Source of the DNA: Bradyrhizobium sp. CSA207
GTDB taxonomy: Bacteria; Pseudomonadota; Alphaproteobacteria; Rhizobiales; Xanthobacteraceae
Direction: 5' to 3'
Length of the DNA stretch: 64,000 nt
NCBI RefSeq assembly: GCF_029051685.1
Contig: NZ_JAACFT010000003.1
Span: forward strand, 124,001 to 188,000
Within the stretch, counting starts at the first letter, position 1. Each line of letters opens with the position of its first letter. Shown one piece after another: positions 1 through 33,109 of this stretch. Under the pieces are notes generated by a model that saw only the letters and a program-made list of their open reading frames with translations, was not told the origin of the DNA and made no database searches. The position numbers and the translations under genes are program-made.

Positions 1-1860
1 TACACCAGCGCGACCGCGCTCTCCAACGTGCTGTTCTCCGGCGCGGCTGGTGGCGTCACGGCAGCGACCTCGACGACCACGCTGGGCGCGTCGGCCGTGG
101 CCAGCTATACGGGCACCGCGATCAACGCGGCGACCACGGCGGCCAGCCTCCTGAACGGCACGGCTGCTGTCAGTGACGCCAACGCCGGCGTTGTCGCGGG
201 TGACACTTTCACTGTCAACGGCAAGACCATCACCTTTGCTTCGGGTGACGCGCCGGGTACGGCACCGACTGGATTCACCAAGGTCGCTGCGTCGGCCGGC
301 GTGACCACCGGCAACGTCTATACGGATGCGAGCGGCAATTCGCTCGTCTATCTTGGTTCTACGACGAAGGCCTCGGTCGGTGACGTGCTGACCGCGATTG
401 ACGTCGCCAGCGGTGTGCAGAGCAACGTCGCCGGTACTTTGACGCTGAACACCAGCCAGACCGCCTCGACCGTCAACGGCAGCGGTGCGCTGCTCCTCGA
501 GAGCTCGACCGGTGCGGATCTGAGCGTTTCGGGCAAGGCCGACATCCTCAAGGCTCTCGGGCTGACCACCGCGACCGGTACCGGTAGTGCCACTGTCACT
601 GCGGCTCGCGTCACTGCATCGGGCAGCCTCGGCTCGTTCGTGCAGGATGGATCGACCCTGAACGTCAACGGCAAGACCATCACCTTCCAGAACGGTGGAA
701 CCCCCGCTGCGGCGCAGGTTGCGAGTGGCTCGGGCGTGAGCGGCAACGTTGTGACCGACGGCAGCGGCAACTCGACGGTCTATCTCAACAAGGGTACGAT
801 TGCCGACGTGCTGAAGGCGATCGATCTCGCCACCGGCGTGCAGACCGCATCCAACTCCGGCGGTACGGCGACCCTGAGCACCGCAACCGGTCAGACCAAC
901 TCCTCGCTGGTCGCCGGTTCGCTGCATATCTCCACCGGCGCCAACGCGGATCTGTCGATCACCGGCACCGGCAATGCGCTGTCCTCGCTCGGCCTGACCG
1001 GTTCGACCGGCACCGGCACCGCCTTCACCGCGAGCCGTTCTGCGGCGTCGGGCGGCGTCTCGGGCAAGACCTTGACCTTCTCCTCCTTCAACGGCGGCAC
1101 GGCGGTCAACGTCACCTTCGGCGACGGCACTGGTGGCACGGTCAAGACGCTCGATCAGCTCAATACGGCGCTTCAGGCCAACAACCTGAGCGCCACGATC
1201 GACGCCAACGGCCTGCTCACGGTCTCGGCGACCAACGACTACGCCTCCTCGACCATCGGTTCGGCTGTCGCGGGTGGCACCATCGGCGGCACGATCACAT
1301 CGGCTCTGAGCTGGTCGAACGCCACGGCGCCCGTCGCTGACGCAGTTGCCCAGGCCACCCGTACCAACCTGGTGTCCCAGTACAACAACATCCTGACACA
1401 GATCGACACGACCTCGCTGGATGCTTCGTTCAACGGTGTCAACCTGCTCAACGGCGACCAGCTCAAGCTGGTTTTCGACGAGACCGGCAAGTCGAACCTG
1501 AACATCACCGGCGTGACCTTCAACTCGAAGGGTCTGGGTCTGGCCGGCCTGGTGCAGGGCACCGACTTCATCGACAACGCCGCGACCAACAAGGTGCTGA
1601 CCAGCCTGAACTCGGCCTCGAGCACCCTGCGGTCGGAAGCCTCGACCCTGGGTTCGAACCTCTCCATCGTGCAGATCCGCCAGGACTTCAACAAGAACCT
1701 GATCAACGTGCTGCAGACCGGCTCGTCCAACCTGACGCTGGCCGACACCAACGAGGAAGCGGCCAACAGCCAGGCGCTGTCGACCCGCCAGTCGATCGCG
1801 GTGTCCGCGCTGTCGCTGGCCAACCAGTCGCAGCAGAGCGTGCTCCAGCTGCTCCGCTAA
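1..1860 (+). CDS. fliC: Flagellin, long repeat-containing type (5' end outside window)
   Basis: This is the filament subunit, exported through the flagellar type III apparatus. The reading frame is open from base 1, so the N-terminal D0/D1 helices lie upstream of the window. Aligned with the next flagellin, about 128 residues are missing. The middle carries beta-rich repeats built around NGKTITF, SGNSxVYL and ADLSxxG motifs, resembling the DUF1522/flagellin-IN repeats of rhizobial flagellins. The C-terminus has the conserved helix with LINVLQTGSSNLTLADTNEE and ends in SVLQLLR. A 10-bp GC hairpin with a T-run follows. The central kilobase is almost identical to the next gene, while the 3' third is more diverged. 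Confidence 0.95.
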   Translation, partial: YTSATALSNVLFSGAAGGVTAATSTTTLGASAVASYTGTAINAATTAASLLNGTAAVSDANAGVVAGDTFTVNGKTITFASGDAPGTAPTGFTKVAASAGVTTGNVYTDASGNSLVYLGSTTKASVGDVLTAIDVASGVQSNVAGTLTLNTSQTASTVNGSGALLLESSTGADLSVSGKADILKALGLTTATGTGSATVTAARVTASGSLGSFVQDGSTLNVNGKTITFQNGGTPAAAQVASGSGVSGNVVTDGSGNSTVYLNKGTIADVLKAIDLATGVQTASNSGGTATLSTATGQTNSSLVAGSLHISTGANADLSITGTGNALSSLGLTGSTGTGTAFTASRSAASGGVSGKTLTFSSFNGGTAVNVTFGDGTGGTVKTLDQLNTALQANNLSATIDANGLLTVSATNDYASSTIGSAVAGGTIGGTITSALSWSNATAPVADAVAQATRTNLVSQYNNILTQIDTTSLDASFNGVNLLNGDQLKLVFDETGKSNLNITGVTFNSKGLGLAGLVQGTDFIDNAATNKVLTSLNSASSTLRSEASTLGSNLSIVQIRQDFNKNLINVLQTGSSNLTLADTNEEAANSQALSTRQSIAVSALSLANQSQQSVLQLLR

Positions 1861-1888
1861 TAGCGGCTGACATCGCAATCAAGTCATG

Positions 1889-1922
1889 GCGGCGGGGCTT
1901 CGGCCCCGCCGCTTTCTTTTTG
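1889..1922 (+). terminator. Rho-independent terminator after flagellin 1
   Basis: A perfect 10-bp GC stem (arms 1889-1898 and 1903-1912) closes a TTCG loop and is followed by a T-rich run. It lies 28 bp after the stop codon. Confidence 0.85.
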
Positions 1923-1975
1923 CGCAGAGCGATCGCGAAGGGGCCTGATCGCTCCTGGAAAAGTAACCGTTGGTT

Positions 1976-1983
1976 ATGGTTAA
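1976..1983 (-). promoter_or_regulatory. CtrA-like half-site upstream of flagellin 2
   Basis: The minus strand reads TTAACCAT, the common CtrA half-site of alphaproteobacteria. It lies about 200 bp before the next flagellin start, in the 325-bp gap 1861-2185. Apart from the terminator, nothing else was recognised in that gap. No full TTAA-N7-TTAA partner is present here, so this is only a candidate. Confidence 0.35.
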
Positions 1984-2185
1984 CGGGACGCAAACGCCAC
2001 AAAATATCAAGGGATTTCAAGCGGATCATTATTGGGGCAAACGTGCTGGCGCCGCCTTATGGTGAACCAGCGCTTACGGTTGCCGAGCGGGTTTCACCCT
2101 TTGTTAGCCATGTCCGCGCAGGCTGTGCGCGTCACTCGATCCGAAACGGTCGAACGAAGACGCGTAAACCAGAAGGGTAAGAGTT

Positions 2186-4429
2186 ATGTCCGGTATCGTT
2201 CTCTCTGCGTCGGTTCGTCAGAACCTGCTCTCTCTCCAGTCCACCGCCGACCTGCTCGCCACCACCCAGTCCCGTTTGTCGACTGGCAAGAAGGTGAACT
2301 CGGCGCTCGACAACCCCACCAACTTCTTCACGGCACAGTCGCTCGACAACCGCGCGAGCGACATCAACAACCTGCTCGACGGCATCGCCAACGGCGTGCA
2401 GGTGCTCCAGGCCGCCAACACCGGCATCACCTCGCTGTCGAAGCTGCTCGACAGCGCGAAGTCGATCGCCAACCAGGCGCTGCAGACCACGGTCGGCTAC
2501 TCGACCAAGTCGAACGTCTCGACCACGATCGCGGGCGCAACCTCGTCCGACCTGCGCGGCACCACGACCTATTCCAGCGCGACCGCGCTTTCCAACGTGC
2601 TGTTCTCCGGCACAGCTGGTGGCGTCACGGCAGCGATCTCGACGACCACGCTGGGCGCATCGGCCGTGGCCACCTATACGGGCACCGCGATCAACGCGGC
2701 GACCACGGCGGCCAGCCTCCTGAACGGCACGGCTGCTGTCAGTGACGCCAACGCCGGCGTTGTCGCGGGTGACACCTTCACTGTCAACGGCAAGACCATC
2801 ACCTTTGCTTCGGGTGACGCGCCGGGTACGGCACCGACTGGATTCACCAAGGTCGCTGCGTCGGCCGGCGTGACCACCGGCAACGTCTATACGGATGCGA
2901 GCGGCAATTCGCTCGTCTATCTTGGTTCTACGACGAAGGCCTCGGTCGGTGACGTGCTGACCGCGATTGACGTCGCCAGCGGTGTGCAGAGCAACGTCGC
3001 CGGTACTTTGACGCTGAACACCAGCCAGACCGCCTCGACCGTCAACGGCAGCGGTGCGCTGCTCCTCGAGAGCTCGACCGGTGCGGATCTGAGCGTTTCG
3101 GGCAAGGCCGACATCCTCAAGGCTCTGGGGCTGACCACGGCGACCGGTACCGGTAGTGCCACTGTCACTGCGGCTCGCGTCACTGCATCGGGCAGCCTCG
3201 GCTCGTTCGTGCAGGATGGATCGACCCTGAACGTCAACGGCAAGACCATCACCTTCCAGAACGGTGGAACCCCCGCTGCGGCGCAGGTTGCGAGTGGCTC
3301 GGGCGTGAGCGGCAACGTTGTGACCGACGGCAGCGGCAACTCGACGGTCTATCTCAACAAGGGTACGATTGCCGACGTGCTGAAGGCGATCGATCTCGCC
3401 ACCGGCGTGCAGACCGCATCCAACTCCGGCGGTACGGCGACCCTGAGCACCGCAACCGGTCAGACCAACTCCTCGCTGGTCGCCGGTTCGCTGCATATCT
3501 CCACCGGCGCCAATGCGGATCTGTCGATCACCGGCTCGGGCAATGCGCTGTCCTCGCTCGGCCTGACCGGTTCGACCGGCACCGGGACCGCCTTCACCGC
3601 GAGCCGCACGCCCGCGTCAGGTAGTATCTCGGGCAAGACCTTGACCTTCTCCTCCTTCAACGGCGGCACGGCGGTCAACGTCACCATCGGCGACGGCACC
3701 AATGGCACGGTCAAGACGCTCGATCAGCTCAATACGGCGCTTCAGGCCAACAACCTTGCGGCCACGATCGATGCCAACGGCCTGCTCACGATCTCGACGA
3801 CCAACGAGTATGCTTCCTCGACAATCGGCTCGGCAGTCGCAGGCGGCGTGATCGGCGGCACGATCACCTCGGCCCTGAGCTGGACGAATGCGACGACGCC
3901 GACTGTTGATCCCGTGGCGCAGGCCACCCGCTCCAACCTGGTGTCCCAGTACAACAACATCCTGGCGCAGATCGACACCACGTCGGTCGACGCGTCCTTC
4001 AACGGCGTCAACCTGCTCAACGGTGATCAGCTCAAGCTCGTCTTCGACGAGACGGCCAAGTCGACCCTGAATATTACCGGCGTGACCTTCAACTCGAAGG
4101 GTCTCGGCCTCGCCGGCCTGGTTCAGGGCAGCGACTTCATCGATAACGCCGCGACCAACAAGGTGCTCGTCAGCCTGAACTCGGCCTCGAGCACCCTGCG
4201 GTCGGAAGCCTCGACCCTGGGTTCGAACCTCTCGGTCGTGCAGATCCGTCAGGACTTCAACAAGAACCTGATCAACGTGCTGCAGACCGGCTCGTCCAAC
4301 CTGACGCTGGCCGACACCAACGAAGAAGCGGCCAACAGCCAGGCGCTGTCGACCCGCCAATCGATCGCCGTCTCCGCCCTATCGCTGGCCAACCAGTCGC
4401 AGCAGAGCGTGCTTCAGCTGCTCCGCTAA
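2186..4429 (+). CDS. fliC: Flagellin, 747 aa repeat-containing type
   Basis: This is a complete filament subunit. Residues 1-110 form the conserved N-terminal D0/D1 helices (SVRQNLLSLQSTADLL, LSTGKKVNSALDNPTNFFTA). Residues about 180-560 hold at least two related beta-rich units of about 130 residues (NGKTITF, SGNSxVYL, ADLSxxG) and a third unit starting at GKTLTFSSFNGG. The C-terminal helix ends in SQQSVLQLLR. It is far longer than enterobacterial flagellins, but such length is usual for the thick filament of Bradyrhizobium. The ATG follows a GGGTAAGAG ribosome site. It is one of three tandem copies, each with its own terminator, so each may be transcribed separately. Confidence 0.95.
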   Translation: MSGIVLSASVRQNLLSLQSTADLLATTQSRLSTGKKVNSALDNPTNFFTAQSLDNRASDINNLLDGIANGVQVLQAANTGITSLSKLLDSAKSIANQALQTTVGYSTKSNVSTTIAGATSSDLRGTTTYSSATALSNVLFSGTAGGVTAAISTTTLGASAVATYTGTAINAATTAASLLNGTAAVSDANAGVVAGDTFTVNGKTITFASGDAPGTAPTGFTKVAASAGVTTGNVYTDASGNSLVYLGSTTKASVGDVLTAIDVASGVQSNVAGTLTLNTSQTASTVNGSGALLLESSTGADLSVSGKADILKALGLTTATGTGSATVTAARVTASGSLGSFVQDGSTLNVNGKTITFQNGGTPAAAQVASGSGVSGNVVTDGSGNSTVYLNKGTIADVLKAIDLATGVQTASNSGGTATLSTATGQTNSSLVAGSLHISTGANADLSITGSGNALSSLGLTGSTGTGTAFTASRTPASGSISGKTLTFSSFNGGTAVNVTIGDGTNGTVKTLDQLNTALQANNLAATIDANGLLTISTTNEYASSTIGSAVAGGVIGGTITSALSWTNATTPTVDPVAQATRSNLVSQYNNILAQIDTTSVDASFNGVNLLNGDQLKLVFDETAKSTLNITGVTFNSKGLGLAGLVQGSDFIDNAATNKVLVSLNSASSTLRSEASTLGSNLSVVQIRQDFNKNLINVLQTGSSNLTLADTNEEAANSQALSTRQSIAVSALSLANQSQQSVLQLLR

Positions 4430-4458
4430 CAAACGACGGAAATCATAAGGTAAATATG

Positions 4459-4491
4459 GCGGCGGGGCCTCGGCGGCCCCGCCGCTTTTTT
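4459..4491 (+). terminator. Rho-independent terminator after flagellin 2
   Basis: An 11-bp perfect GC stem (arms 4459-4469 and 4475-4485) with a short loop is followed by six T residues. It is closely related to the hairpin after flagellin 1. Confidence 0.85.
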
Positions 4492-4564
4492 GCGTGTGCG
4501 GGAACCGCGCAGAGTCCGCGGTCCAAGCCGGGAAGACGCGCTAACCCGGCATTAACCGTATCCC

Positions 4565-4590
4565 TTAAACCGCCGTTAACCATACTTTAA
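4565..4590 (+). promoter_or_regulatory. CtrA-like site with three phased TTAA boxes, upstream of flagellin 3
   Basis: TTAA occurs at 4565, 4576 and 4587, each separated by exactly 7 bases, and the middle one reads TTAACCAT. TTAA-N7-TTAA is the full CtrA recognition pattern, so two overlapping full sites are present about 90 bp before the start codon. A further TTAA lies at 4552. CtrA binding is inferred from the motif only. Confidence 0.6.
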
Positions 4591-4675
4591 AGGACAGCCC
4601 CTAAAACTGGACAAAAGCCCGCTTTCCAGATCGGCGAGCCCCGATTCGTACCCGGTTCAAGAGGAAGACCAGCCA

Positions 4676-6916
4676 ATGTCCAACATCGTTCTCTCGGCGT
4701 CGGTTCGCCAGAACCTGTTGTCGCTGCAGTCGACGGCCGACCTGCTGGCCACGACACAGCAGCGCCTCTCGACCGGCAAGAAGGTCAACACGGCGCTCGA
4801 CAACCCCACCAACTTCTTCACCGCACAGGGGCTGGACAACCGGGCGAGCGATATCAGCAACCTGCTCGACGGCATCAACAACGGCGTGCAGGTGCTCCAG
4901 GCCGCCAACACCGGCATCACCTCGCTGCAAAAGCTGATCGACAGCGCCAAATCGATCGCGAACCAGGCGCTCCAGACCACGGTCGGCTATTCGACCAAGT
5001 CGAACATCACGACCACGATCCCCGGCGCAACGCCTGCCGATCTTCGCGGCACCACGAGCTACACGTACGCAACTGCAACCGGTAATGTCATCACCAACGG
5101 TACTGCTGGTGGTACGACTCCGATCACCGGCGCGACCACGCTCGGTGGCATCTCGCAGCCACTGGCAGGATTTGCTGCTCCCGACGGTGCCGGTACGGCA
5201 AATAGCCTTGCGGCGGGCCTCACCTTGCTCGGCACGCCCAGTGCCACCACCATCGCGGCGAACGGCGCGCCGTCAGACGGCGATGTGATGATCGTCGACG
5301 GCAAGACCATCACGTTCAGGGCCGGCGCTGCGCCTGCGGTGGCCAGCGTTCCCGCCGGTTCCGGCAGGAACAACAACGTCGTCACCGACGGCAATGGCAA
5401 TTCGACCGTTTACCTCGGGACAAATGCCATCCCGGCCGCGACCGTCCAGGACGTGATGGATGCGATCGATCTCGCGAGTGGCGTGCAAAAGGCCGCTATC
5501 ACAGGCGGCACCGCGACGTTGTCGAGCTCGTCAGGCACCAACGCAGCCATCGCCGGCGGTGTTCTGACCCTCACCACCGGAACGGGCGCCGATCTCAGCG
5601 TCACCGGCAAGGCCGACTTCCTCAAGGCGCTCGGTCTGACGACCGCGACCGGCTCTGGCAACGTCAGTGTTACCAAGGCGCGGCTGACGACCTCGGCGAC
5701 GCTGGGCACGCTTGTTGACGACGGCTCCACGCTGAACGTTGACGGCAAGACGGTGTCGTTCAAGAACGCGGCGGTTCCTGCTGCCGCTCCGACGGGGTCC
5801 ACCAAGATCGGCAACATCGTGACGGACAACAATGGCAACTCCGTCGTCTATCTCCAGGGCGCAAGCGTTCAGGATTCACTGAATGCGATCGACCTGGCCT
5901 CGGGCGCCGGCATCGTCAGCGGCGGTGCCGTGGTTGCGGCGAGCGGTTCGTCGCTTTCTTCGGTCGTCAACGGAGCTCTCAAGCTCAGCACCGGCACCAC
6001 GGCGGATTTGTCGATCACCGGCACGGGCAACGCGCTGTCCGCGTTCGGCCTGACCGGTCCGACCGGCACCGGCACGGCCTTTACTGCTGGTCGCGCGCCC
6101 GGAGCGGGCAGCATCTCGGGCAAGACCCTGACCTTTACCTCGTTCAACGGCGGCACGCCGGTCAACGTGACCTTTGGTGATGGTACCAACGGCACCGTCA
6201 AGACGCTCGATCAACTGAACTCTCAGCTGCAGGCGAACCATCTGACCGCGACGATCGACGCCAACGGCGTGCTCACGATCACCACCGTCAACGAGTATGC
6301 CTCCTCGACGCTCGGCTCGGTGACTGCCGGGGGCGCGGTCGGCGGCACGATCACGGGTGTGATCGCTTTCACGACCGCCCAGCCGCCGATCCAGGATCCG
6401 GTCGCGCAGACGGCGCGCTCAAACCTGGTCAACCAGTTCAACAACATTTTGGCGCAGATCGACACGACTTCGCAGGATGCTTCCTTCAACGGCGTGAACC
6501 TGCTTAATGGCGATACGCTGAAGCTGATCTTCAACGAGACCGGCAGCTCGACACTCGGCATCAACGGCGTGGTCTTCAACGCGGCGGGCCTCGGTCTCAG
6601 CAACCTCGTCAACGGTATCGACTTCATCGACAATGGCGCCACCAACAGGGTGCTGACCAGCCTGAACGCCGCCTCGAGCACGCTGCGCTCGGAAGGTTCT
6701 GCGCTCGGTTCGAACCTCTCGATCGTGCAGGTGCGTCAGGATTTCTCGAAGAACCTGATCAACGTGCTGCAGACGGGCTCGTCCAACCTGACGCTGGCCG
6801 ACACCAACGAGGAAGCGGCCAACAGCCAGGCGCTCTCGACCCGCCAGTCGATCGCGGTCTCGGCGCTGTCGCTCGCCAACCAGTCGCAGCAGAGCGTGCT
6901 GCAGCTGCTGCGCTAA
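4676..6916 (+). CDS. fliC: Flagellin, 746 aa repeat-containing type
   Basis: This is the third tandem filament subunit. The N-terminal helical region (residues 1-110) and the C-terminal 90 residues are nearly the same as in the two genes upstream. The central repeat region (about 150-560) is clearly diverged in sequence but keeps the same units (DGKTITF/DGKTVSF, GNSTVYL, TGADLSVTGKADFLKALGLT). GAGGAAGA precedes the ATG. It has its own CtrA-like sites and terminator. Together with its neighbours it gives the cell several filament proteins with identical polymerisation ends and different surface domains. Confidence 0.95.
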   Translation: MSNIVLSASVRQNLLSLQSTADLLATTQQRLSTGKKVNTALDNPTNFFTAQGLDNRASDISNLLDGINNGVQVLQAANTGITSLQKLIDSAKSIANQALQTTVGYSTKSNITTTIPGATPADLRGTTSYTYATATGNVITNGTAGGTTPITGATTLGGISQPLAGFAAPDGAGTANSLAAGLTLLGTPSATTIAANGAPSDGDVMIVDGKTITFRAGAAPAVASVPAGSGRNNNVVTDGNGNSTVYLGTNAIPAATVQDVMDAIDLASGVQKAAITGGTATLSSSSGTNAAIAGGVLTLTTGTGADLSVTGKADFLKALGLTTATGSGNVSVTKARLTTSATLGTLVDDGSTLNVDGKTVSFKNAAVPAAAPTGSTKIGNIVTDNNGNSVVYLQGASVQDSLNAIDLASGAGIVSGGAVVAASGSSLSSVVNGALKLSTGTTADLSITGTGNALSAFGLTGPTGTGTAFTAGRAPGAGSISGKTLTFTSFNGGTPVNVTFGDGTNGTVKTLDQLNSQLQANHLTATIDANGVLTITTVNEYASSTLGSVTAGGAVGGTITGVIAFTTAQPPIQDPVAQTARSNLVNQFNNILAQIDTTSQDASFNGVNLLNGDTLKLIFNETGSSTLGINGVVFNAAGLGLSNLVNGIDFIDNGATNRVLTSLNAASSTLRSEGSALGSNLSIVQVRQDFSKNLINVLQTGSSNLTLADTNEEAANSQALSTRQSIAVSALSLANQSQQSVLQLLR

Positions 6917-18053: not shown

Positions 18054-18554
18054 ATGGCAGAGAATGAAGCGGAAGGCGGTGCAGCCGCCGAAGGGGCAGA
18101 AGCCGCTGCGCCGAAGAACAAGCTCAAGCTCATCATCATGGCCATCGGCCTGCTCGCCATCCTCGGCGGCGGCGCGGCGACCTGGTTCTTCTTCTTTCGT
18201 CACGGCGACGATGAGCATCATGCCGAGGCGGCGGCGCCGCCGAAGCCGCCGGCTTTTGTCGACGTGCCCGACATCATGGTCAACCTCGCCGGCACGCCCG
18301 GGGAGCGCGTGCAATATCTGCGGCTGAAGATCGTGCTGGAGCTGAAGGAAGAGAAGCAGATCGAGGCGATCAAGCCGACGATGCCGCGCGTCACCGACAT
18401 CTTCCAGACCTATGTGCGGGAACTGCGCCCATCCGACCTCAACGGCTCCGCGGGCGTCTTTCGCCTCAAGGAAGAGCTGACCAAGCGCGTCAATGCCGCG
18501 GTCGCGCCGATCCAGGTCGGCGCGGTGCTGTTCAAGGAAGTCGTGATCCAGTGA
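18054..18554 (+). CDS. fliL: Flagellar stator-associated protein FliL
   Basis: FliL is an inner-membrane protein around the stator that affects torque. The 166 residues comprise an acidic/Ala-rich cytoplasmic head, one membrane helix (about 26-48, LIIMAIGLLAILGGGAATWFF), and a periplasmic domain. That domain contains VDVPDIMVNL, YLRLKIVLEL and MPRVTDIFQTYVRELRPSDLNGSAGVFRLKEEL. It heads fliL-fliM-DUF6468-motE, with fliM starting 19 bases after its stop. Confidence 0.95.
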   Translation: MAENEAEGGAAAEGAEAAAPKNKLKLIIMAIGLLAILGGGAATWFFFFRHGDDEHHAEAAAPPKPPAFVDVPDIMVNLAGTPGERVQYLRLKIVLELKEEKQIEAIKPTMPRVTDIFQTYVRELRPSDLNGSAGVFRLKEELTKRVNAAVAPIQVGAVLFKEVVIQ

Positions 18555-18573: not shown

Positions 18574-19776
18574 ATGGCGGGCAACGACCAGGTCGATCAG
18601 GATGCAATTGCCGCCCAATGGGAGGCCTCGCTTGATTCCGAGGATCCCGCTGAGGCCGCGAAGGCTGCTTCCGAGAATGAATTGTCCGAGACCATGGCCC
18701 TGCAATGGGCGGCCATGGTCGAGGACGGCAGCCGCGATCTCGGCAGCGGCAAGAACTCCGGCGAGCGCGTGCTGTCGCAGGAGGAGATCGACAATCTCCT
18801 CGGTTTCACCGTCGGCGACGTCACCCTCGACGATCATTCCGGCATTCGCGCGATCATCGATTCGGCGATGGTCTCCTACGAGCGTCTGCCGATGCTCGAA
18901 ATCGTCTTCGACCGCCTGGTGCGGCTGATGACGACCAGCTTGCGCAATTTCACCTCCGACAACGTCGAAGTTTCGCTCGACCGCATCACCTCGGTGCGCT
19001 TCGGCGACTACATGAACTCGATCCCGCTGCCGGCCGTCCTCACCGTCTTCAAGGCCGAGGAGTGGGAAAACTTCGGCATGGCGACGGTCGATTCCAACCT
19101 GATCTACTCGATGATCGACGTGCTGCTCGGCGGCCGCCGCGGCACCAGCCAGCTTCGCATCGAGGGCCGGCCCTACACCACGATCGAGACCGAGCTGGTC
19201 AAGCGCCTGGTCGAGGTGGTCCTGGCCGATGCCGAGCAGGCGTTCCGGCCGCTGTCGCCGGTGACCTTCACGATCGACCGGCTCGAGACCAATCCGCGTT
19301 TCGCCGCGATCAGCCGTCCTGCCAACGCCGCGATCCTGGTGCGCCTGCGCATCGACATGGAAGACCGCGGCGGCAACATCGAACTCCTGTTGCCCTATGC
19401 GACCATCGAACCGATCCGGGGCGTCCTGCTCCAGATGTTCATGGGCGAAAAGTTCGGCCGCGATCAGATCTGGGAAGGCCATTTCGCCACCGAGATCGGG
19501 CAGGCCGAGATCTCCGTCGACGCGGTGCTCTACGAGGCCGACATTCCGCTCAAGCAGCTGATGCGGCTGAAGGTCGGCGACACGTTGCCGCTCGAAATGC
19601 GGGCGGATGCCAACGTCACCGTGCGCTGCGGCGACGTCACCCTTACCGAAGGACGCATGGGCCGGGTCGGCGACCGCGTCGCGATACGGGTGACGAAACC
19701 CCTGCGCAAGCCAAGTACGACACTTGCGATGTTCGAGAAAGTGGACGAGCAGAACAAGATGATGGAGGCCCCATGA
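18574..19776 (+). CDS. fliM: Flagellar motor switch protein FliM
   Basis: FliM is a C-ring switch protein that binds FliG, FliN and phospho-CheY. The 400-residue protein has the switch motif LSQEEIDNLLG at residues 67-77, and the middle domain with VSYERLPMLEIVFDRLVRL, SYLNSIPLP-like, and IDxLLGGRRG. The C-terminal SpoA-like domain is LKQLMRLKVGDTLPL. The CheY-binding motif is normally at the extreme N-terminus. Here about 65 acidic residues precede it. Its stop overlaps the next gene as ATGA. Confidence 0.95.
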   Translation: MAGNDQVDQDAIAAQWEASLDSEDPAEAAKAASENELSETMALQWAAMVEDGSRDLGSGKNSGERVLSQEEIDNLLGFTVGDVTLDDHSGIRAIIDSAMVSYERLPMLEIVFDRLVRLMTTSLRNFTSDNVEVSLDRITSVRFGDYMNSIPLPAVLTVFKAEEWENFGMATVDSNLIYSMIDVLLGGRRGTSQLRIEGRPYTTIETELVKRLVEVVLADAEQAFRPLSPVTFTIDRLETNPRFAAISRPANAAILVRLRIDMEDRGGNIELLLPYATIEPIRGVLLQMFMGEKFGRDQIWEGHFATEIGQAEISVDAVLYEADIPLKQLMRLKVGDTLPLEMRADANVTVRCGDVTLTEGRMGRVGDRVAIRVTKPLRKPSTTLAMFEKVDEQNKMMEAP

Positions 19777-20219
19777 ACCACTCCCTGGGAATGGCGATCG
19801 AGACGCTGGTGGCTATCCTGCTGATGCTCACGATCGGTTACTGTATCCTGCTCAACAAGCGGCTGATGCGGCTGAAGGCGGACGAGCACTCGCTGAAGGC
19901 GGTCATCGCCGAGCTGATCACCGCGACCGAGATCGCCGAGCGCGCGATCGGCGGGCTGAAGCTCGCCGTCCGCGACGTCAACGAGAATCTCGGCAGCCAG
20001 CTCGCCGCCGCCACCCAGATGTCGGACCAGCTCTACAAGCAGCTGGGGGAAGCCGACAACGTGGTGCGGCGTCTCTCCAAGATCGCGATCGCCGCGCGAC
20101 CGGTCACGAATCCGGAAATGGCTGCCGCGCCCGCGGCCAGGCCCTCGGCGGCGAAGGCGGTTGCGGCTGCGGCCGAAGCATTCTCCGAGCGCCGAAGGTC
20201 CAACGGTCTGGCTGCATAA
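19773..20219 (+). CDS. DUF6468-type flagellar-operon membrane protein
   Basis: This 148-residue protein has one N-terminal membrane helix (about 6-28, MAIETLVAILLMLTIGYCILL). A basic stop-transfer (NKRLMRLK), a helical region suited to a coiled coil (about 35-100) and an Ala-rich tail follow. The layout matches the DUF6468 proteins found between fliM and motE in alphaproteobacteria, recalled from genome context rather than searched. Its ATG overlaps the fliM stop. Position and topology suggest a motor- or stator-linked role, but no function is established here. Confidence 0.65.
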   Translation: MNHSLGMAIETLVAILLMLTIGYCILLNKRLMRLKADEHSLKAVIAELITATEIAERAIGGLKLAVRDVNENLGSQLAAATQMSDQLYKQLGEADNVVRRLSKIAIAARPVTNPEMAAAPAARPSAAKAVAAAAEAFSERRRSNGLAA

Positions 20220-20228
20220 AGTCAAGGT

Positions 20229-20990
20229 ATGAAGTCCTTTCGTAACATCCGCGTCATTCCCGTCGTCCTGGTTGCGGTCGCAGGTCTCGCCATGCTGAAG
20301 GTCGCGGGCCTCGCGATCAACGGCGGCTATGTCTTCGACTACAAGCCGAATTCGGCGAAGAAGTCGTGGGCACAGGAGAACCTGAATTTCCCGACCGGGC
20401 GGGAAGACCCCGACATCACGGGATCGACGCATGGTGCGCCGAAGGAGGCGCCCAAGCCGGCCGCGCCCGAGACCAAGCCCGAGGGCACCGTGGTCAAGGT
20501 CGAGGAGTCCCAACCGCAGGTCTCGGCCTCGGAGCGCGCGATCCTGGAGCGGCTGCAGTCGCGCCGCCAGGAGATCGAGGCCCGCCAGCGCGAGATCGAC
20601 ATCCGCGAGAGCCTGTTGAAGTCGGCCGAGAAGCGCATCGAGAACAAGGTCGAGGAGATGAAGGCGGTGGAATCCCGCATCTCCACCACCCAGGCCGAGC
20701 AGAAGGCCGCCGAAGCCCAGCGCATGAAGGGCCTCGTGACCATGTATGAAGGCATGAAGCCCAAGGACGCTGCGCGGGTGTTCGACCGGCTGGAGATGGG
20801 CGTGCTAATCGAGATCGCCTCGCAAATCGCCCCGCGAAAGATGTCGGACATCCTCGGCCTGATGTCGTCCGAGGCCGCCGAGCGGCTGACGGTCGAGATG
20901 GCGCGGCGTGCCAATGGCGGCGGAGACCAGTCCGCCTCGGCCGGAGATCTCCCGAAGATCGATGGCAAGCCGACGCAAAAGCCGAATTGA
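20229..20990 (+). CDS. motE: MotE-like flagellar motor chaperone (MgtE-N domain)
   Basis: The 253-residue protein has an N-terminal signal/anchor (about 9-28, VIPVVLVAVAGLAMLKVAGLA) and a Pro/Lys-rich linker. A long coiled coil (about 95-160) follows, then an MgtE-N-like domain with KGLVTMYEGMKPKDAARVFDRL and APRKMSDILGLMSSEAAERLT. In Sinorhizobium, MotE is a periplasmic chaperone for MotC. It starts nine bases after the DUF6468 stop and is followed by the giant TPR gene, which may be its partner. Confidence 0.75.
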   Translation: MKSFRNIRVIPVVLVAVAGLAMLKVAGLAINGGYVFDYKPNSAKKSWAQENLNFPTGREDPDITGSTHGAPKEAPKPAAPETKPEGTVVKVEESQPQVSASERAILERLQSRRQEIEARQREIDIRESLLKSAEKRIENKVEEMKAVESRISTTQAEQKAAEAQRMKGLVTMYEGMKPKDAARVFDRLEMGVLIEIASQIAPRKMSDILGLMSSEAAERLTVEMARRANGGGDQSASAGDLPKIDGKPTQKPN

Positions 20991-21000
20991 GGGCTCATAC

Positions 21001-21015
21001 TTAAGAAGTCCTTAA
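21001..21015 (+). promoter_or_regulatory. CtrA-like site upstream of the large TPR gene
   Basis: TTAA at 21001 and TTAA at 21012 are separated by exactly 7 bases, an exact match to the CtrA box spacing. It lies between motE and the TPR gene, about 70 bp before the likely start, and would allow the TPR gene to be expressed separately from fliL-motE. Confidence 0.5.
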
Positions 21016-21083
21016 TTGCCAAAATCTACAGTTCACGGAACGGGCCGGCGCCAGTGCCGGCATGGACGGTCGAACCGGAAGAA

Positions 21084-24000
21084 ATGCCGCCAATGGCGCG
21101 AGAGGCTGCCGCTGGATTGTTGTCGCGAGCCCGCGCCATGGCGCGAGGACTGTCGCGCCATGTCCGCAAGGCGCCCGTGCTGGCAGCCTGCCTTCTGATC
21201 GGCCTCAGCGCGGCTGCCCGTGCCGCCGACCCGATCCGCGGCGAGGCGACTTTCGCGGCCGGCGGCGGCTTTGCCCGTCTCGTGATCAAGCTCGGCGAGG
21301 ATGTTCCCTCCGAGGTGACGACCGCGGGCTCGATCCTCATCATCCGTTTCGATCGCCCCGTCGACGTTCCCGTCGACCGCGTTCCGGAGGGCGCGCCCGA
21401 CTACGTCAACTCCGCCCGGCGCGATCCCGACGGCGGTGCGATCCGGTTGTCGCTGGCGCGGCGTGTCACCGTCAACACCATGAATGCAGGTGAGCGCACC
21501 TTCGTCGACCTGCTGCCGGAGGGCTGGAAGGGACCGCCGCCGAGCCTGCCCATGGACGTCGTCAAGGAGCTCGCCGAACGGGCGCGCGTCGCCGAGCGGG
21601 CGCTGCGCGCCCAGCGTGCCGCGGCCGAGAGCAAAAAGCGTCCGACGATCCGCGTGCGTGCCTCGGTGCAACCGACCTTCGTGCGTTTCGTGTTCGAAAT
21701 GCCCGACGGCGTCGGGGTCTCCTCCGTGCTCAACGAACAGAAGCTCACGCTGGCCTTTAACGCCAACCTCAATTTCGATCTTGCCGATGCCGTCGTGGCG
21801 GCGCCGCCGAACGTGGCCTCGATCAAGCAGAGGGCCGACATTGACCAGACCGCGGTCGAGATATCGCTGATCGGCGATTCCGACGTGCACTCCTTCCGCG
21901 ACGAGAAGAATTACGTCGTCGACATCGCCTTCCAGCCGGACAAGGGCAAGACGCCCGAGGCGCCGATCGCGCAGGCCAAGCCGGCCGGTCACGGACCGGC
22001 ACCGGCTGCTGAAAAGCCGGCGGCCGAGAAGAAAGACGCCCATCGCGAGATCATCCCGCCGACGTCCGAGACGATCGCGCGCGAAGCCAAGATCGACGTC
22101 AAGCCGGAATCCCTCGTTGCAGCGCCGCCTGCGGAAGCTCCGAAACCAGCACCGGCACCGGTTGCGGCCGCGCCCGAAGCTGCGCACGCTGCCGAAGCGC
22201 CCAAGCCTGCGGCGCCTGTCGCGGAAACTGCGGTTGCGCCCGCCAAGCCGGAGGCGTCTGCGGTCACCGAGGCTCCCAAGGAGGTCGTGAAGGAGCCGGC
22301 CAAGGAAACGATCAAGGACACGATCAACGAAGCGACCAAGGAAACGACCAAGGCTGCCGAGGCTCCGGCCGCGCCGCAGCCTGCCGCGGCCAGCGTCGAT
22401 GCGCGCCGCGACAGCGACGGTCTGCGCGTGACGTTCCCGCTTCAGGTCGCAACGCCTGCGGCAGCGTTCCGCCGCGGCGATACGATCTGGCTGGTGTTCG
22501 ATACGCCAAAACCGATCGACGTCGAGCCGATCCGCGCCAGGGGCGGGGCGATGATCGGCGAGGTCAGCCGCATCCCGCTCAAGAAGGGGCAGGCCGTTCG
22601 CATTCGCCTCACCCGGCCGCTGGTCTACTCGCTGTCGACCGAGGAGGTCGGCAAGGAGACGAACTGGCTGCTGACGCTCGCCGACAAGATCCAGGCGACG
22701 CCGCTGCCGCTGATGATGTCGCGCAACATCACCGATCCCGCGCTCGCCAACATCGCCATTCCCTTCGCCAATCCGGGCCTTCTGCACAAGCTGACCGATC
22801 CCGACGCCGGCGACACGCTCTATATCGTCACCGCGCAGCGGCCGGTCCGCGGCTTCATCAAGCGCCAGGACCTCGTCGATCTCTCGCTGCTGGAATCCGC
22901 GCACGGTATTGCGATCCGGCCAAACTCCGACGAGATCGGGGTTGAGGTCGGGGCCGACAAGGTCATTCTCGGCAAGAAGGGCGGCTTGACGCTGTCGCCG
23001 GTCGACATCTCCGCCGAGCGGGCGCCGACCGCGGTGCGGCCGATCTTCAGTCCAGAAAATTGGCGCAAGGGCCAGTCGGAGAATTTCATCACGCGCCAGG
23101 GCGATCTGATCACGGCGATCGCGGCCGTCGAACCGGCGATGCGCTCGCTGCCGCGGCTCGACCTCGCGCAGTTCTACATGTCACGTGCCATGTATCACGA
23201 GGCCAAGGCCGTCACCGACCTGATGCTGAGCGATCCCCTCAACAAGGAGGAGAGCGGCGCGCTGATCATGCATGCGATCGCAAGCATCCTGATCGGCCGG
23301 CCGGCGCAGGGCCTGAAGGACCTTGCCAATCCCGTGATCGGCAACAGCCACGACTCCCAGCTCTGGAAGGCGCTCGCCTATGCACGCCAGGGCAAATGGG
23401 CCGATGCGCGCGAGAAATTCAAGAACGTCGAATTCGCCATCGCCTCGCTGCCGCTGGACATCCAGCGCATCGTGACGATGGATGCGATGCGCGCCTCGCT
23501 CGAGGTCAAGGACTATGCCGGTGCCTCCAAGCGCCGCGGCGAGATCGAGGTGGTCGGCGTGCCGCCCGAGACGGCGCCCGCCTTTGCGGTGCTGCGCGGC
23601 CGGCTCGCCGAGGCGCTCGGTCACGACAAGGATGCGCTCGACGACTACAAGATCGCGGTCGCCTCGAACGACCGTCAGGCCGCGGCAGAGGCCAAGCAGC
23701 TCGAGGTCGCGCTGCGACAGAAGCGCGACGAGATCAGCAAGGAAGAGGCGCTGGGCGAGCTCGAAACGCTGTCGATGACCTGGCGCGGCGACGCGATCGA
23801 GGTCAAGACGCTCCAGCTGCTGTCGCGGATGTACTCGGAGAACGGGCGCTACCGTGACGCGCTCACCGCGGCACGCACGGCGACCAAACTTCAACCGAAT
23901 GCCGAGGCCTCGCGCCTGGCGCAGGATCTCGCCTCCGACCTGTTCACGCAGATATTCCTGGGGCCGAAAGGCGACGAGTTGCCGCCGATCGAGGCGCTCG

Positions 24001-24827
24001 CGATGTTCTACGAGTTCCGCGAGCTGACGCCGATCGGCCGGCGCGGCGACGAACTGATCCGCCGCCTGGCCGACCGTCTGGCCTCGATCGATCTGCTCGA
24101 CCAGGCTGCCGAGCTCTTGCAATACCAGGTCGACCACCGGCTCGAAGGCGCTGCGCGCGCGCAGGTCGCCGCGCGGCTTTCGATGATCTATCTTGCCAAC
24201 CGCAAGCCCGACATGGCGATTTCGGCGCTGCGCGCGAGCCGCATCAGCGATCTCTCGGGCGAGCTGCGGCAGCAGCGCCTGCTGCTGGAGGCGCGTGCGC
24301 AGAGCGACGTCGGCCGCCATGATCTCGCGCTCGACATCGTCTCCAACGTCTCGGGGCGAGAGGTGCTCCGACTGCGCTCCGACATCTTCTGGGCGGCGCG
24401 GCGCTGGCGTGAATCCGCCGAGCAGCTCGAACTCTATTACGGCGAGCGTTTCCGCGACTTCAAGCCGCTCAATTCGGTGGAGAAGAGCGACGTCATCCGC
24501 GCCGCGGTCGGCTATGCGCTGGCCGACGACTCGATCGGCCTGTCGCGCTTCCGCGAGAAATACGCGCCGCTGATGAGCGAGAGCGCCGACCGGCTCGCCT
24601 TCGACATCGCGAGCAAGCCGGCCGGAGCCTCCAGCGCCGAATTTGCCGAGATCGCCAAGTTGGCTGCCAGCGTCGACACGCTCGACGGCTTCCTGCGCGA
24701 GATGAAGCAGCGCTTCCCCGACGCCACCGCCCGCGCGCCGGCAGCCCCCCAGGCCAAGGACGAAGCCGAGCATACCGGCTCACTGCCGAAGATCCCCGCC
24801 GTGCGGCAGATCAAGATGACGCGGTAG
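21084..24827 (+). CDS. Large periplasmic AMIN-like / TPR protein of the flagellar cluster
   Basis: This protein of about 1247 residues has a signal peptide (VLAACLLIGLSAAARA). Two beta-rich segments follow at about 52-145 and 185-290 (FARLVIKLGEDVP, LIIRFDRPVDVPVD; FVRFVFEMPDGV). Then comes a Pro/Ala/Glu/Lys linker of about 150 residues, and a third beta segment (GDTIWLVFDTPKPIDV, about 440-540). The long helical C-terminal part (about 690-1200) has TPR character (AQFYMSRAMYHEAKAV, ALEVKDYAGASKRRGE). The beta segments look like AMIN-type cell-wall domains. Its place after motE suggests a periplasmic motor or stator scaffold, perhaps filling the role of MotC. The start could also be 21093 or GTG 21054. 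Confidence 0.65.
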   Translation: MPPMAREAAAGLLSRARAMARGLSRHVRKAPVLAACLLIGLSAAARAADPIRGEATFAAGGGFARLVIKLGEDVPSEVTTAGSILIIRFDRPVDVPVDRVPEGAPDYVNSARRDPDGGAIRLSLARRVTVNTMNAGERTFVDLLPEGWKGPPPSLPMDVVKELAERARVAERALRAQRAAAESKKRPTIRVRASVQPTFVRFVFEMPDGVGVSSVLNEQKLTLAFNANLNFDLADAVVAAPPNVASIKQRADIDQTAVEISLIGDSDVHSFRDEKNYVVDIAFQPDKGKTPEAPIAQAKPAGHGPAPAAEKPAAEKKDAHREIIPPTSETIAREAKIDVKPESLVAAPPAEAPKPAPAPVAAAPEAAHAAEAPKPAAPVAETAVAPAKPEASAVTEAPKEVVKEPAKETIKDTINEATKETTKAAEAPAAPQPAAASVDARRDSDGLRVTFPLQVATPAAAFRRGDTIWLVFDTPKPIDVEPIRARGGAMIGEVSRIPLKKGQAVRIRLTRPLVYSLSTEEVGKETNWLLTLADKIQATPLPLMMSRNITDPALANIAIPFANPGLLHKLTDPDAGDTLYIVTAQRPVRGFIKRQDLVDLSLLESAHGIAIRPNSDEIGVEVGADKVILGKKGGLTLSPVDISAERAPTAVRPIFSPENWRKGQSENFITRQGDLITAIAAVEPAMRSLPRLDLAQFYMSRAMYHEAKAVTDLMLSDPLNKEESGALIMHAIASILIGRPAQGLKDLANPVIGNSHDSQLWKALAYARQGKWADAREKFKNVEFAIASLPLDIQRIVTMDAMRASLEVKDYAGASKRRGEIEVVGVPPETAPAFAVLRGRLAEALGHDKDALDDYKIAVASNDRQAAAEAKQLEVALRQKRDEISKEEALGELETLSMTWRGDAIEVKTLQLLSRMYSENGRYRDALTAARTATKLQPNAEASRLAQDLASDLFTQIFLGPKGDELPPIEALAMFYEFRELTPIGRRGDELIRRLADRLASIDLLDQAAELLQYQVDHRLEGAARAQVAARLSMIYLANRKPDMAISALRASRISDLSGELRQQRLLLEARAQSDVGRHDLALDIVSNVSGREVLRLRSDIFWAARRWRESAEQLELYYGERFRDFKPLNSVEKSDVIRAAVGYALADDSIGLSRFREKYAPLMSESADRLAFDIASKPAGASSAEFAEIAKLAASVDTLDGFLREMKQRFPDATARAPAAPQAKDEAEHTGSLPKIPAVRQIKMTR

Positions 24828-26832: not shown

Positions 26833-26847
26833 TTAACCACCCGTTAA
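26833..26847 (+). promoter_or_regulatory. CtrA-like full site between fliO and flgB
   Basis: TTAA-N7-TTAA with the right half reading TTAACCAT is an exact match to the CtrA consensus. It lies 65 bp before flgB in the 345-bp divergent gap 26567-26911, the rest of which shows nothing recognisable. It is best placed for flgB-flgC-fliE and might also affect fliO-fliP. Confidence 0.6.
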
Positions 26848-30532: not shown

Positions 30533-33109
30533 ATGACTGCCGAGACCGACCACGACCTCACGCGAGAGCCCATTGCGGCGCACGAACCGTCGCCGCGCTC
30601 GGGCAGCATCGCGCTTGTGCTGCTGGTGGCCGCCGGCCTCGTCGCCGTCGCCGTCGGGCTGATGACGCTCGGGCGCGCGCAGGCGCAGCCCTATATTCTC
30701 GGCATCCTCGCCGTGCTGGCGATGGTCGGCCTGTTCAACCTGTTCGCCTTTGCCGCGGGCATCATCCGCTTCGTCGACCGCAATCTCGACGATCCGGTAA
30801 TGGGGCGGATCGCCGACCATGCCTTCGATGGGCTCGCGGTGACCGATCCGCGCGGCCACGTAGTCTATTCCAACGCCGCCTATCTGACCCTGACCGGCGC
30901 CACCGGCCCGCAGGAGGTGCGCCCGGTCGAGCGCGTCTTCATCGGCAATCCCGATGTCTCCGAGGCGGTGTTCCGCCTGCTGAAAGCCGCGCGTGAGGGC
31001 AAACGCCAGCAGGAAGAGGTGCGCATTTCCGGTCATGACGGCAGCCAGGGGCGCTGGCTGCGCATGCGGGTGCGCCCGCTCGGCACCGGCAAGCGCGAAG
31101 CGAAATATGCGGTGTGGTCGATCGCCGACATCACCCGCGACCGCGAGCGCCAGGAGGACGTGTTCCAGGAACTCCAGCATGCGATCGAATATCTCGATCA
31201 CGCGCCCTGCGGCTTCTTCTCGGTCAATCCGGCCGGCGAGCTCGTCTATGTCAACGCGACGCTCGCGAACTGGCTCGACTACGACCTCGCCGAGATCGGC
31301 TCCGGCGGCCTGAAGCTGACCGATATCGTCTCCGGCGATGGTACATCGCTGCTGACCTCGATCGTGGCGGTGCCGGGCGAGGTGAAGACGGAAGTCTTCG
31401 ACATCGACCTGCGCATGCGCACCGGCAAGACCATGCCGGTGCGGCTCTATCACAAGCTCGCCTTCGGCGCCGACGGCGCGCCGGGGCCGTCGCGCACGCT
31501 GGTCATCAGCCGCGCCCGCGACGAGCGCAGCGATCCCGACCGCGCCGCCGAAGTGCGCTTCATGCGCTTCTTCGACCACACGCCGATGGCAATTGCGACC
31601 GTCGACCGCGGCGGCAACGTCGTGCGCGCCAATGCCCGCTACGCCAAGCTCGGGCAGGCCCTCGGGCTCGACAGCGCCAGCAAATCGATCTTCCGCGCGG
31701 TCAATTCGCGCGACCGGCACCTGCTGATCGCGGCCATCAACCAGGCCGCCGAAGGCCGCGGCGACGTTGCGCCGGTCGAGGTGGCGCTCGAGGGCACGAA
31801 AGAGCGCTGGGGGCAGTTCTTCGTCACGCCGGTCGACGAGGCCGAGCACGATACTGAAGCCGCCATCGTCCACATGCTCGAGACCACCGAGCGGCGCGCG
31901 CTGGAGAACCAGATCAACCAGTCGCAGAAGATGGAGACGGTCGGCCAGCTAGCCGGCGGCATCGCCCACGACTTCAACAACGTGCTGTCCGCCATCATGA
32001 TGGCGAACGACTTCCTGCTGAACGCGCATAAGCCGACCGATCCGTCGTTCCAGGACATCATGCAGATCAAGCAGAACGCGACGCGCGCCGCGACTCTGGT
32101 GCGGCAGCTGCTCGCGTTCTCGCGGCGGCAGACCCTGCGGCCGCAGGTGCTCGATCTCGGCGATGCGCTGAGCGACCTTGCCATGCTGCTGCGGCGGTTG
32201 ATCGGCGAGAAGGTCAAGCAGGAGACCATCCACGGCCGCGACCTCTGGCCGGTCAAGGTCGATGTCTCCCAGTTCGAGCAGGTGATCGTCAATCTCGCGG
32301 TCAACGCGCGCGATGCGATGCCGGACGGCGGCAAGCTGATCATCCGCACCGCCAATGTCAGCGCTGAACAAGCGGCCAAGCTCGCCTACAAGGGCATGCC
32401 GGCCGCGGATTATGTCCGCATCGAGGTGGCCGACACCGGCACCGGCATTCCCGCCGACATCCGCGACAAGATCTTCGAGCCGTTCTTCTCGACCAAGGAA
32501 GTGGGCAAGGGCACCGGTCTCGGGCTTTCCACCGTCTACGGCATCGTCAAGCAGACCGGCGGCTTCATCTATGTCGATTCCGAGCCGGGGCAGGGCACCT
32601 CGTTCAACATCTTCCTGCCGCGGCACCATGCCGAGCCGGACGCGCAGCTCGAGCAGCCCGCGGCGGTTGGCTCACCCAATGGCGCGAAGGAAACCGCGCC
32701 CGCGGCGGAGGCCAAGCCGCGCACCGATCTCACCGGACAAGGCACTATCCTTCTGGTCGAGGACGAAGAGGGCCTGCGCGCACTCAACGCGCGCGGCCTG
32801 CGCTCGCGCGGCTATACCGTGGTCGAGGCCGAGAACGGCGTCGAGGCCATGGAGGTGCTCGAGGAGCACAGCGGTGGCATCGATCTCGTCGTCTCCGACG
32901 TCGTGATGCCGGAGATGGACGGTCCGACGCTTCTGAAGGCGATGCGGGAGAAGAACCCCGAGATCAAGTTCATCTTCGTCTCCGGCTATGCCGAGGACGC
33001 CTTCGAGAAGAGCCTGCCCGAAGGCCAGCAGTTCGACTTCCTGCCGAAGCCGTTCACGCTCAGCCAGCTTGTGGCGGCGGTGAAGGAGACGATGGCGAAG
33101 GCGGGGTAA
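30533..33109 (+). CDS. cckA: Hybrid histidine kinase CckA
   Basis: CckA phosphorylates ChpT, which passes phosphate to CtrA and CpdR, the cell-cycle and flagellar control relay of alphaproteobacteria. The 858 residues hold two membrane helices (about 24-46 and 55-78) and PAS-type regions. The dimerisation domain has H479 (GGIAHDFNN), and the ATPase domain has NAVNARDAM-like, DTGTGIP and [17 protein letters not shown]-terminal receiver carries D789 ([11 protein letters not shown]). It lies 154 bp after flhB and is flanked by a flagellar cluster with CtrA-like sites, a physical link between regulator and regulon. Confidence 0.93.

Follow-up and report, generated by a model that had tools for sequence, protein, structure and literature searches.

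A 1247-Residue Protein of the Bradyrhizobium Flagellar Cluster as a Probable FssB/MotK-Type Scaffold of the Motor

We analysed a 64,000-nucleotide stretch of the genome of Bradyrhizobium sp. CSA207 (contig NZ_JAACFT010000003.1, positions 124,001 to 188,000), referred to here as the window, and in particular the gene at window positions 21084-24827, which codes for a protein of 1247 amino acids (aa). With a probability of about 0.8, this protein represents the FssB/MotK family in Bradyrhizobium and acts as a spoke or scaffold in the periplasm that supports the stators of a CtrA-controlled flagellar motor. The domain build, the family membership, the gene order, and a conserved CtrA-type site were computed here. 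The periplasmic location, the interaction with MotE and MotB (both for MotK), and the paralysis of mutants (MotK and FssB) were shown by others for relatives. We infer the same role in Bradyrhizobium, as well as which part of the protein binds what and any binding to the cell wall.

Gene, Export Signal, and Domain Build

The open reading frame (ORF) consists of 1247 codons and a stop codon, and a coding-type guanine-cytosine bias was measured on the frame from 21054 (0.85 at codon position 3 and 0.48 at position 2). Both 21084 and 21093 are possible start codons, since the alignment with several relatives from Bradyrhizobium begins at residue 4. Hydropathy analysis of the whole protein (19-residue windows, cut-off 1.6) revealed a signal-type hydrophobic segment at residues 30-48 and no second segment above 1.6 outside it. 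The only cysteine, residue 36, is placed within L-A-A-C inside this segment, six residues past the last basic residue; therefore, a lipoprotein signal is unlikely. Aligned relatives, L006 and L008 for instance, lack a cysteine at this position. Among relatives with a name, the closest belong to Bradyrhizobium, with an identity of 82-90% for loci L033, L034, L035, and L048. A single-sequence search of the own genome (8.4 Mb, 151 contigs) gave one match to the scaffold gene. The parts of the gene are as follows (window coordinates, strand, feature, evidence).

21084..24827, +, predicted FssB/MotK-family flagellar scaffold gene, 1247 aa (ORF list, homology searches)
21084..21224, +, signal-peptide region, residues 1-47 (hydropathy)
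21225..21536, +, D1, AMIN-fold domain, residues 48-151 (model; match to AmiC 4bin)
21639..21938, +, D2, AMIN-fold domain, residues 186-285 (match to PilQ 4av2; hhalign to D1)
21939..22385, +, Pro/Ala/Glu/Lys-rich low-confidence linker, residues 286-434 (predicted local distance difference test score, pLDDT, mostly <50; composition)
22386..22688, +, D3, AMIN-like domain, residues 435-535 (hhalign to D2 and D1)
22689..22994, +, D4, beta domain without a match to D1-D3, residues 536-637 (pLDDT of blocks >90)
23052..24734, +, all-helical tetratricopeptide repeat (TPR) half, residues 657-1217 (AlphaFold2; TPR_2)
23931..24233, +, region of highest conservation, residues 950-1050, candidate site for partner docking (column conservation)

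Two AlphaFold2 models were used. That of residues 48-691 (58 sequences) had a mean pLDDT of 82 and a predicted template modelling score (pTM) of 0.42, and that of residues 641-1247 (68 sequences) had values of 86 and 0.71. In the first model, residues 48-151, 186-285, and 435-535 each form a confidently predicted domain with some eight strands; the arrangement of the domains is not trustworthy because of the pTM of 0.42. Fold comparison with VIA-align matched D1 to AmiC (4bin; Z 12.4, root-mean-square deviation (rmsd) 2.5, 103 residues aligned) and D2 to PilQ (4av2; Z 10.1, rmsd 2.4, 92 aligned; 4aqz, Z 9.9). The top row was PilQ in 3jc8 with a Z of 13.7, but with an rmsd of 26 across several domains, and the rows after AmiC and PilQ were small heat-shock proteins (Z ≤7.4). 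In Foldseek, the sole PDB match of the N-terminal model at an expectation value (E) ≤0.001 was also PilQ in 3jc8 (E 1.7e-4). Judging by hhalign (D1-D2, E 5e-12; D1-D3, E 3e-6; D2-D3, E 6e-9), D1, D2, and D3 are mutually homologous. No significant hhalign match to D1-D3 was found for D4 (E 0.065-0.14).

The linker between D2 and D3 consists of Pro, Ala, Glu, and Lys in 70%. Residues 641-1247 are entirely helical in the model, and the TPR half matches Pfam TPR_2 at E 6e-8. Mean column conservation in 25 sequences is 0.66 in residues 950-1050 vs. 0.41 overall. The single-sequence PDB search gave no credible match (best E 0.11); that with the family profile was led by designed and natural TPR proteins, with PilQ at E 4.5e-4. 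An earlier reading of the DNA made from its letters (the sequence-only reading) had described a secreted protein of about 1247 residues with three AMIN-like segments, a Pro/Ala/Glu/Lys linker, and a TPR half. The ORF with its signal-type N-terminus, the models, the fold matches, and the comparisons between domains agree with this description, to which AlphaFold2 added the fourth beta domain, D4.

Orthology with FssB and Homology to MotK

Two genomes were taken as Caulobacter because their CckA matches a fragment of PDB 5idj, an entry which we take to be from Caulobacter crescentus, with 100% identity. The family profile matched them at E 1e-242 and 7e-242 (profile positions 333/339-1144 and a second piece for D2), and phmmer with the window protein alone found the Caulobacter homologue at E ~1e-106. 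The gene order, fliL-fliM-pflI-motE-homologue, matches that of the window. The counterparts of the window motE are 260 and 264 aa long in these genomes, and a length of 264 aa is given for Caulobacter MotE in an E-ring review (PMC13023049). In the homologue, the AMIN-type domains begin with D2, at about residues 36-130 (numbered without the three residues that precede the start); in PMC10954123, residues 36-132 of CC_2058 are given as its AMIN-like region. Because gene order, MotE lengths, and AMIN position agree with the literature on CC_2058, we regard the window gene as the orthologue of Caulobacter FssB (CC_2058). Both proteins have a signal peptide and the D2-D3-D4-TPR build, and both genes stand directly behind pflI-motE. 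The Caulobacter protein, however, is 957-958 aa long and D1 was not found in it, whereas the window protein has D1 and 1247 aa. The Caulobacter gene also lies only 9 bases behind motE, with no TTAA-N7-TTAA in the stretches fetched, in contrast to a gap of 93 bases that holds such a site in the window. As described in PMC7885107, cells with an fssB deletion have filaments and are non-motile, like a motB mutant.

MotK is known from Cereibacter. According to PMC10954123, it is a periplasmic protein that showed interactions with both MotE and MotB2 in vitro and whose location depends on MotA2/MotB2; the MotK mutant is paralysed with filaments still assembled. The same paper, from 2024, reports no similarity between MotK and Caulobacter proteins in BLAST. 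In genome G022, we found the arrangement fliL-pflI-motE-motA-X, in which pflI was assigned by position and a weak DUF6468 match and X is a protein in the MotK position; X is present in 80 of 120 genomes of the family to which G022 belongs. On a Paroceanicella plasmid (named Rhodobacterales), fliL, two hypothetical genes, and motA are followed by X, an 883-residue hypothetical protein. A MotK-type profile was built from 30 MotK-position proteins, with C. sphaeroides MotK itself outside the set.

The hhalign comparison of this profile with the window family reached E 1e-31 at full length; the AMIN part gave 1.6e-16 when set against D2, and the TPR part gave 6.4e-24. Two controls yielded 9e-7 (the family's own TPR halves vs. 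each other) and 0.18 (reversed alignment). The family profile in turn matched 24 of the 30 proteins at E ≤4e-10. With the window protein alone, the MotK-type profile scored 30.8 bits, a value that carries a large composition-bias term. D1 and D2 are both matched by the AMIN domain of MotK-position proteins, D3 (E 0.002) and D4 (E 0.27) not clearly so, and hhalign with the 30-sequence profile found no D3 or D4 in these proteins. From these profile comparisons, we conclude that MotK-position proteins are homologous to the FssB family. MotK resembles the window protein in its signal peptide, AMIN-like N-terminus, linker, and TPR C-terminus and in the place of its gene after motE. It differs in its length (652 aa in C. 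sphaeroides, PMC10954123), in its one AMIN domain, and in motA standing between motE and motK.

Distribution and Architectures of the Family

Among 190 genomes drawn from the class, relatives were found in 104, own genome included, by a single-sequence search. The family profile matched 120 genomes at E 1e-3, 103 of these at E 1e-20; the weaker matches may be generic TPR proteins. One genome, G131, had a single-sequence match at E 7e-10, yet it is absent among the profile matches. DUF6468/pflI is present in 101 genomes, and it occurs together with the gene in 96; the gene alone was found in 8, pflI alone in 5, and neither in 81. Common descent and the possession of flagella as such both confound this co-occurrence.

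For the census of architectures, 132 family loci were collected and 110 remained after 5 duplicates and 17 loci cut by contig edges had been dropped; the census is biased toward close relatives of the window gene, most of which belong to the 80 relative loci that also served for the neighbourhood survey. The D1-D2-D3-D4-TPR build was seen in 85 loci and the D2-D3-D4-TPR build in 16, of which 14 belong to genomes in the family of Caulobacter. The other builds were mixed with D3-D4 (5 loci), D2 only (1), or without any domain found (3). The family thus appears as a modular series, as far as domain matches go: one AMIN domain in the MotK type, two and D4 in the Caulobacter type, and three and D4 in most examined loci.

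Weak relatives annotated as hypothetical protein also occur within flagellar clusters of an Azospirillum brasilense plasmid (L114), where the gene directly precedes motA-motB, and of an Erythrobacter aureus plasmid (L115). Flagellar clusters on plasmids of Sulfitobacter, Alloyangia, Salipiger, and Marinovum contain weak, putative relatives of ~600 residues; the stretches shown there have no annotated motE. The named plasmid records label the gene "hypothetical protein", and one further listing has "tetratricopeptide repeat protein". A search for relatives on viral contigs gave three stretches that matched a pattern, and none was confirmed. The literature search found no description of the gene in Bradyrhizobium; the supplementary tables of PMC11870540, which were outside the search, may list it.

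Operon Context and CtrA-Type Site

In the window, the scaffold gene is the last in the order fliL, fliM, pflI (DUF6468), motE, scaffold gene:

18054..18554, +, fliL (family match)
18574..19776, +, fliM (family match)
19773..20219, +, pflI, DUF6468 (PF20072, E 3e-21)
20229..20990, +, motE-type gene (E-ring protein), presumed partner (gene order, sub-threshold matches)
21001..21016, +, CtrA-type site TTAAGAAGTCCTTAAT between motE and scaffold gene (sequence; conserved in relatives)

The motE gene was assigned from sub-threshold matches to MgtE_N and the FlbB collar and from gene order. The neighbourhood was surveyed at 80 relative loci, in which only 15 window genes were sought. Where more than 3.5 kb of upstream sequence was present (53 loci), the nearest recognised upstream gene was motE in 47 and pflI in 1, and no gene was recognised in 5. 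Loci L004-L032 stem from 29 other genomes, 26 of which have pflI within 6 kb of the family gene on the same contig and strand (counted by eye). Of the remaining three, G099 yielded no pflI, G063 has it on another contig, and in G087 it lies 9.6 kb away on the opposite strand. The TTAA-N7-TTAA site could be scored at 67 of the 80 loci, after 13 with short or unaligned 5′ ends had been dropped; it stands 5′ of the gene in 58 of the 67, whereas only 28 of 1744 other segments of 450 bases from these loci contain one. The claim of the sequence-only reading that the gene follows motE and has its own CtrA-like site is borne out by the 93-base gap and the conserved site at 21001.

Further sites and genes of the window were noted. 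A near-palindromic CtrA-like site, TTAACCACCCGTTAAC, is located at 26833, upstream of flgB. Three consecutive flagellin-type ORFs of 610-747 aa, each with DUF1522, occupy 28-6916; the first has no N-terminal flagellin match, perhaps because the window edge cuts it, and the third is preceded by a double CtrA-like site at 4565-4590. Close behind the flagellar cluster lies a gene for a CckA-type hybrid kinase (30533-33109; match to PDB 5idj/5idm). CckA is the kinase upstream of CtrA. The longest fliQ frame (from 28100 onward) starts with a peptide ending in LDCFAALAMT. This peptide is probably a dispersed repeat, with the true fliQ start further on, because it also opens an unrelated ORF on contig C107 (L136:6960-7793).

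Proposed Role and Alternatives

Export of the scaffold protein would most likely use the Sec pathway. The TPR half of the protein would dock on MotE, which rings the MS-ring as the E-ring, perhaps through residues 950-1050, a likely docking site judging from their conservation. The AMIN-fold arm would extend outward across the linker to peptidoglycan or other motor proteins, and MotE and the scaffold would together set the MotA/MotB stator units at the rotor and allow their activation. If the scaffold positions and activates MotA/MotB in this way, its loss should give intact, non-rotating flagella. Stator support by the window protein is well backed by the orthologues. The suggestion of the sequence-only reading that the protein anchors the stator fits the flagellated, non-swimming fssB deletion and the interaction of MotK with MotE and MotB2.

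The layout is that of a PflA-type spoke, with AMIN-like domains and a TPR half beside a MotE/FlgY-type gene. MotE has been proposed to be the E-ring, and MotC, MotK, and CC_2058 were likened to PflA by structure (PMC13023049, PMC11870540); for FssB and MotK, the sequence comparisons presented here agree with that grouping. As described in these two sources, PflA of C. jejuni has an AMIN-like beta domain, a loop, TPR repeats, and a tie to the E-ring. Its AMIN domain is single, whereas the window protein has three. In Foldseek with the TPR half, chain 9hmf_K of the C. jejuni flagellar periplasmic scaffold, presumably PflA, ranked third (E 2.5e-6).

Several points weigh against the proposed role. 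The 9hmf_K match has a TM-score of 0.30 and an rmsd of 23.7, involves a long solenoid, and stands amid many unrelated TPR proteins, and no bacterial flagellar protein, 9hmf_K included, is among the 50 VIA matches listed for the TPR half. The family profile misses 6 of the 30 MotK-position proteins, that of L143 among them. Residues 950-1050 are a candidate for MotE docking on the strength of their conservation, and a second flagellar system in the genome may mask the phenotype. Moreover, an AMIN domain need not mean wall binding, since in C. jejuni the loop after the AMIN domain of PflA wraps around PflB (PMC11870540).

The same observation speaks for an alternative to which we assign somewhat less than an even chance, namely that the AMIN domains are protein-docking modules (for the P/L ring, FliL, or each other) with no peptidoglycan contact, the protein being an inter-ring spoke only. 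The variable number of AMIN domains in the family, from one to three, and the presence of the secretin PilQ among the fold matches point in this direction, whereas the match of D1 to AmiC (Z 12.4) does not, the AMIN domain of AmiC being termed peptidoglycan-binding in the title of a reference. An explanation in which the protein mainly stabilises MotE, and MotE does the mechanical work, is improbable. Cereibacter MotE is unstable without MotK; however, the same source (PMC10954123) describes MotE-sfGFP as localised even without MotK, in addition to the interaction of MotK with MotB2 and its need for MotA2/MotB2, and a conserved multidomain build of 1200 residues exceeds the needs of a stabiliser.

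FimV/HubP scaffolds are marked by a LysM domain, a transmembrane helix, and a FimV-type TPR motif. The sequence-only reading had likened the protein to FimV-type scaffolds in size and layout and had suggested that it may place the flagellum at the pole by binding peptidoglycan. A polar landmark of this type is suggested by the size of the protein, its location in the envelope, the Pro/Ala-rich linker, the TPR repeats, and the nearby pflI. We consider it very unlikely, as no LysM or FimV model was matched at E up to 1 (the libraries searched presumably contain both), no hydrophobic segment follows the signal region, the MotK and FssB mutants are flagellated yet paralysed (PMC10954123, PMC7885107), the location of MotK depends on the stator (PMC10954123), and the literature links flagellum positioning to the neighbouring PflI.

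MotC and the Second Flagellar System

The literature (PMC13023049) also describes MotC of the Sinorhizobium meliloti type as a TPR-type partner of MotE in the periplasm, but it does not match the AMIN domains of the window family. None of the MotC NCBIfam models matched the window protein at E values up to 1. A profile match of MotC to the TPR part (E 6e-5) was rejected as evidence of homology; it is weaker than the internal TPR similarity of the family (9e-7) and so shows only a generic TPR likeness, although the comparison is rough, as the full TPR part is longer than the halves used for the internal value. The remark of the sequence-only reading that no motC is visible holds within the window as far as seen, but not for the genome, where contig C22 (L140, 36000-54000) carries a Sinorhizobium-type flagellar cluster with motB-motC-fliK. 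Its motC scored 512.6 bits vs. a cut-off of 487 (MotC NCBIfam model), and a MotE-type gene stands directly before flgH (sub-threshold MgtE_N, E 7e-5). A second motB (PF13677), preceded by a putative motA-like gene, was found on contig C59. A possible second motE on C107 (E 0.8) was taken as chance; in the 39 kb around it (two overlapping stretches), the sole match to a flagellar query was to the over-long N-terminus of the fliQ query. On these assignments, one genome has two MotE-type genes, each clustered with a different candidate for the periplasmic partner.

Implications

The analysis provides a likely function for a widespread gene that is annotated as hypothetical protein in the named plasmid records. 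The sequence link between FssB and MotK is new and concerns two stator-supporting proteins that were formerly tied by predicted structure. Also new are the modular series of family builds and the presence of two MotE-type genes in one genome. Two such genes in one cell, clustered with different partner candidates, would offer a way to ask about the role of the E-ring spoke and the assignment of stators to motors. It is conceivable, though rather doubtful, that MotE1 and the triple-AMIN protein serve the CtrA flagellum and MotE2 and MotC the Sinorhizobium-type one, that the scaffold assigns the stators, and that the gain of AMIN domains tuned torque. If so, the allocation of stator units between the two motors would be decided by the scaffold and not by the rotor, and the stepwise gain of AMIN domains, from one in MotK through two in Caulobacter to three here, would have tuned the anchoring of the stators and hence the torque.

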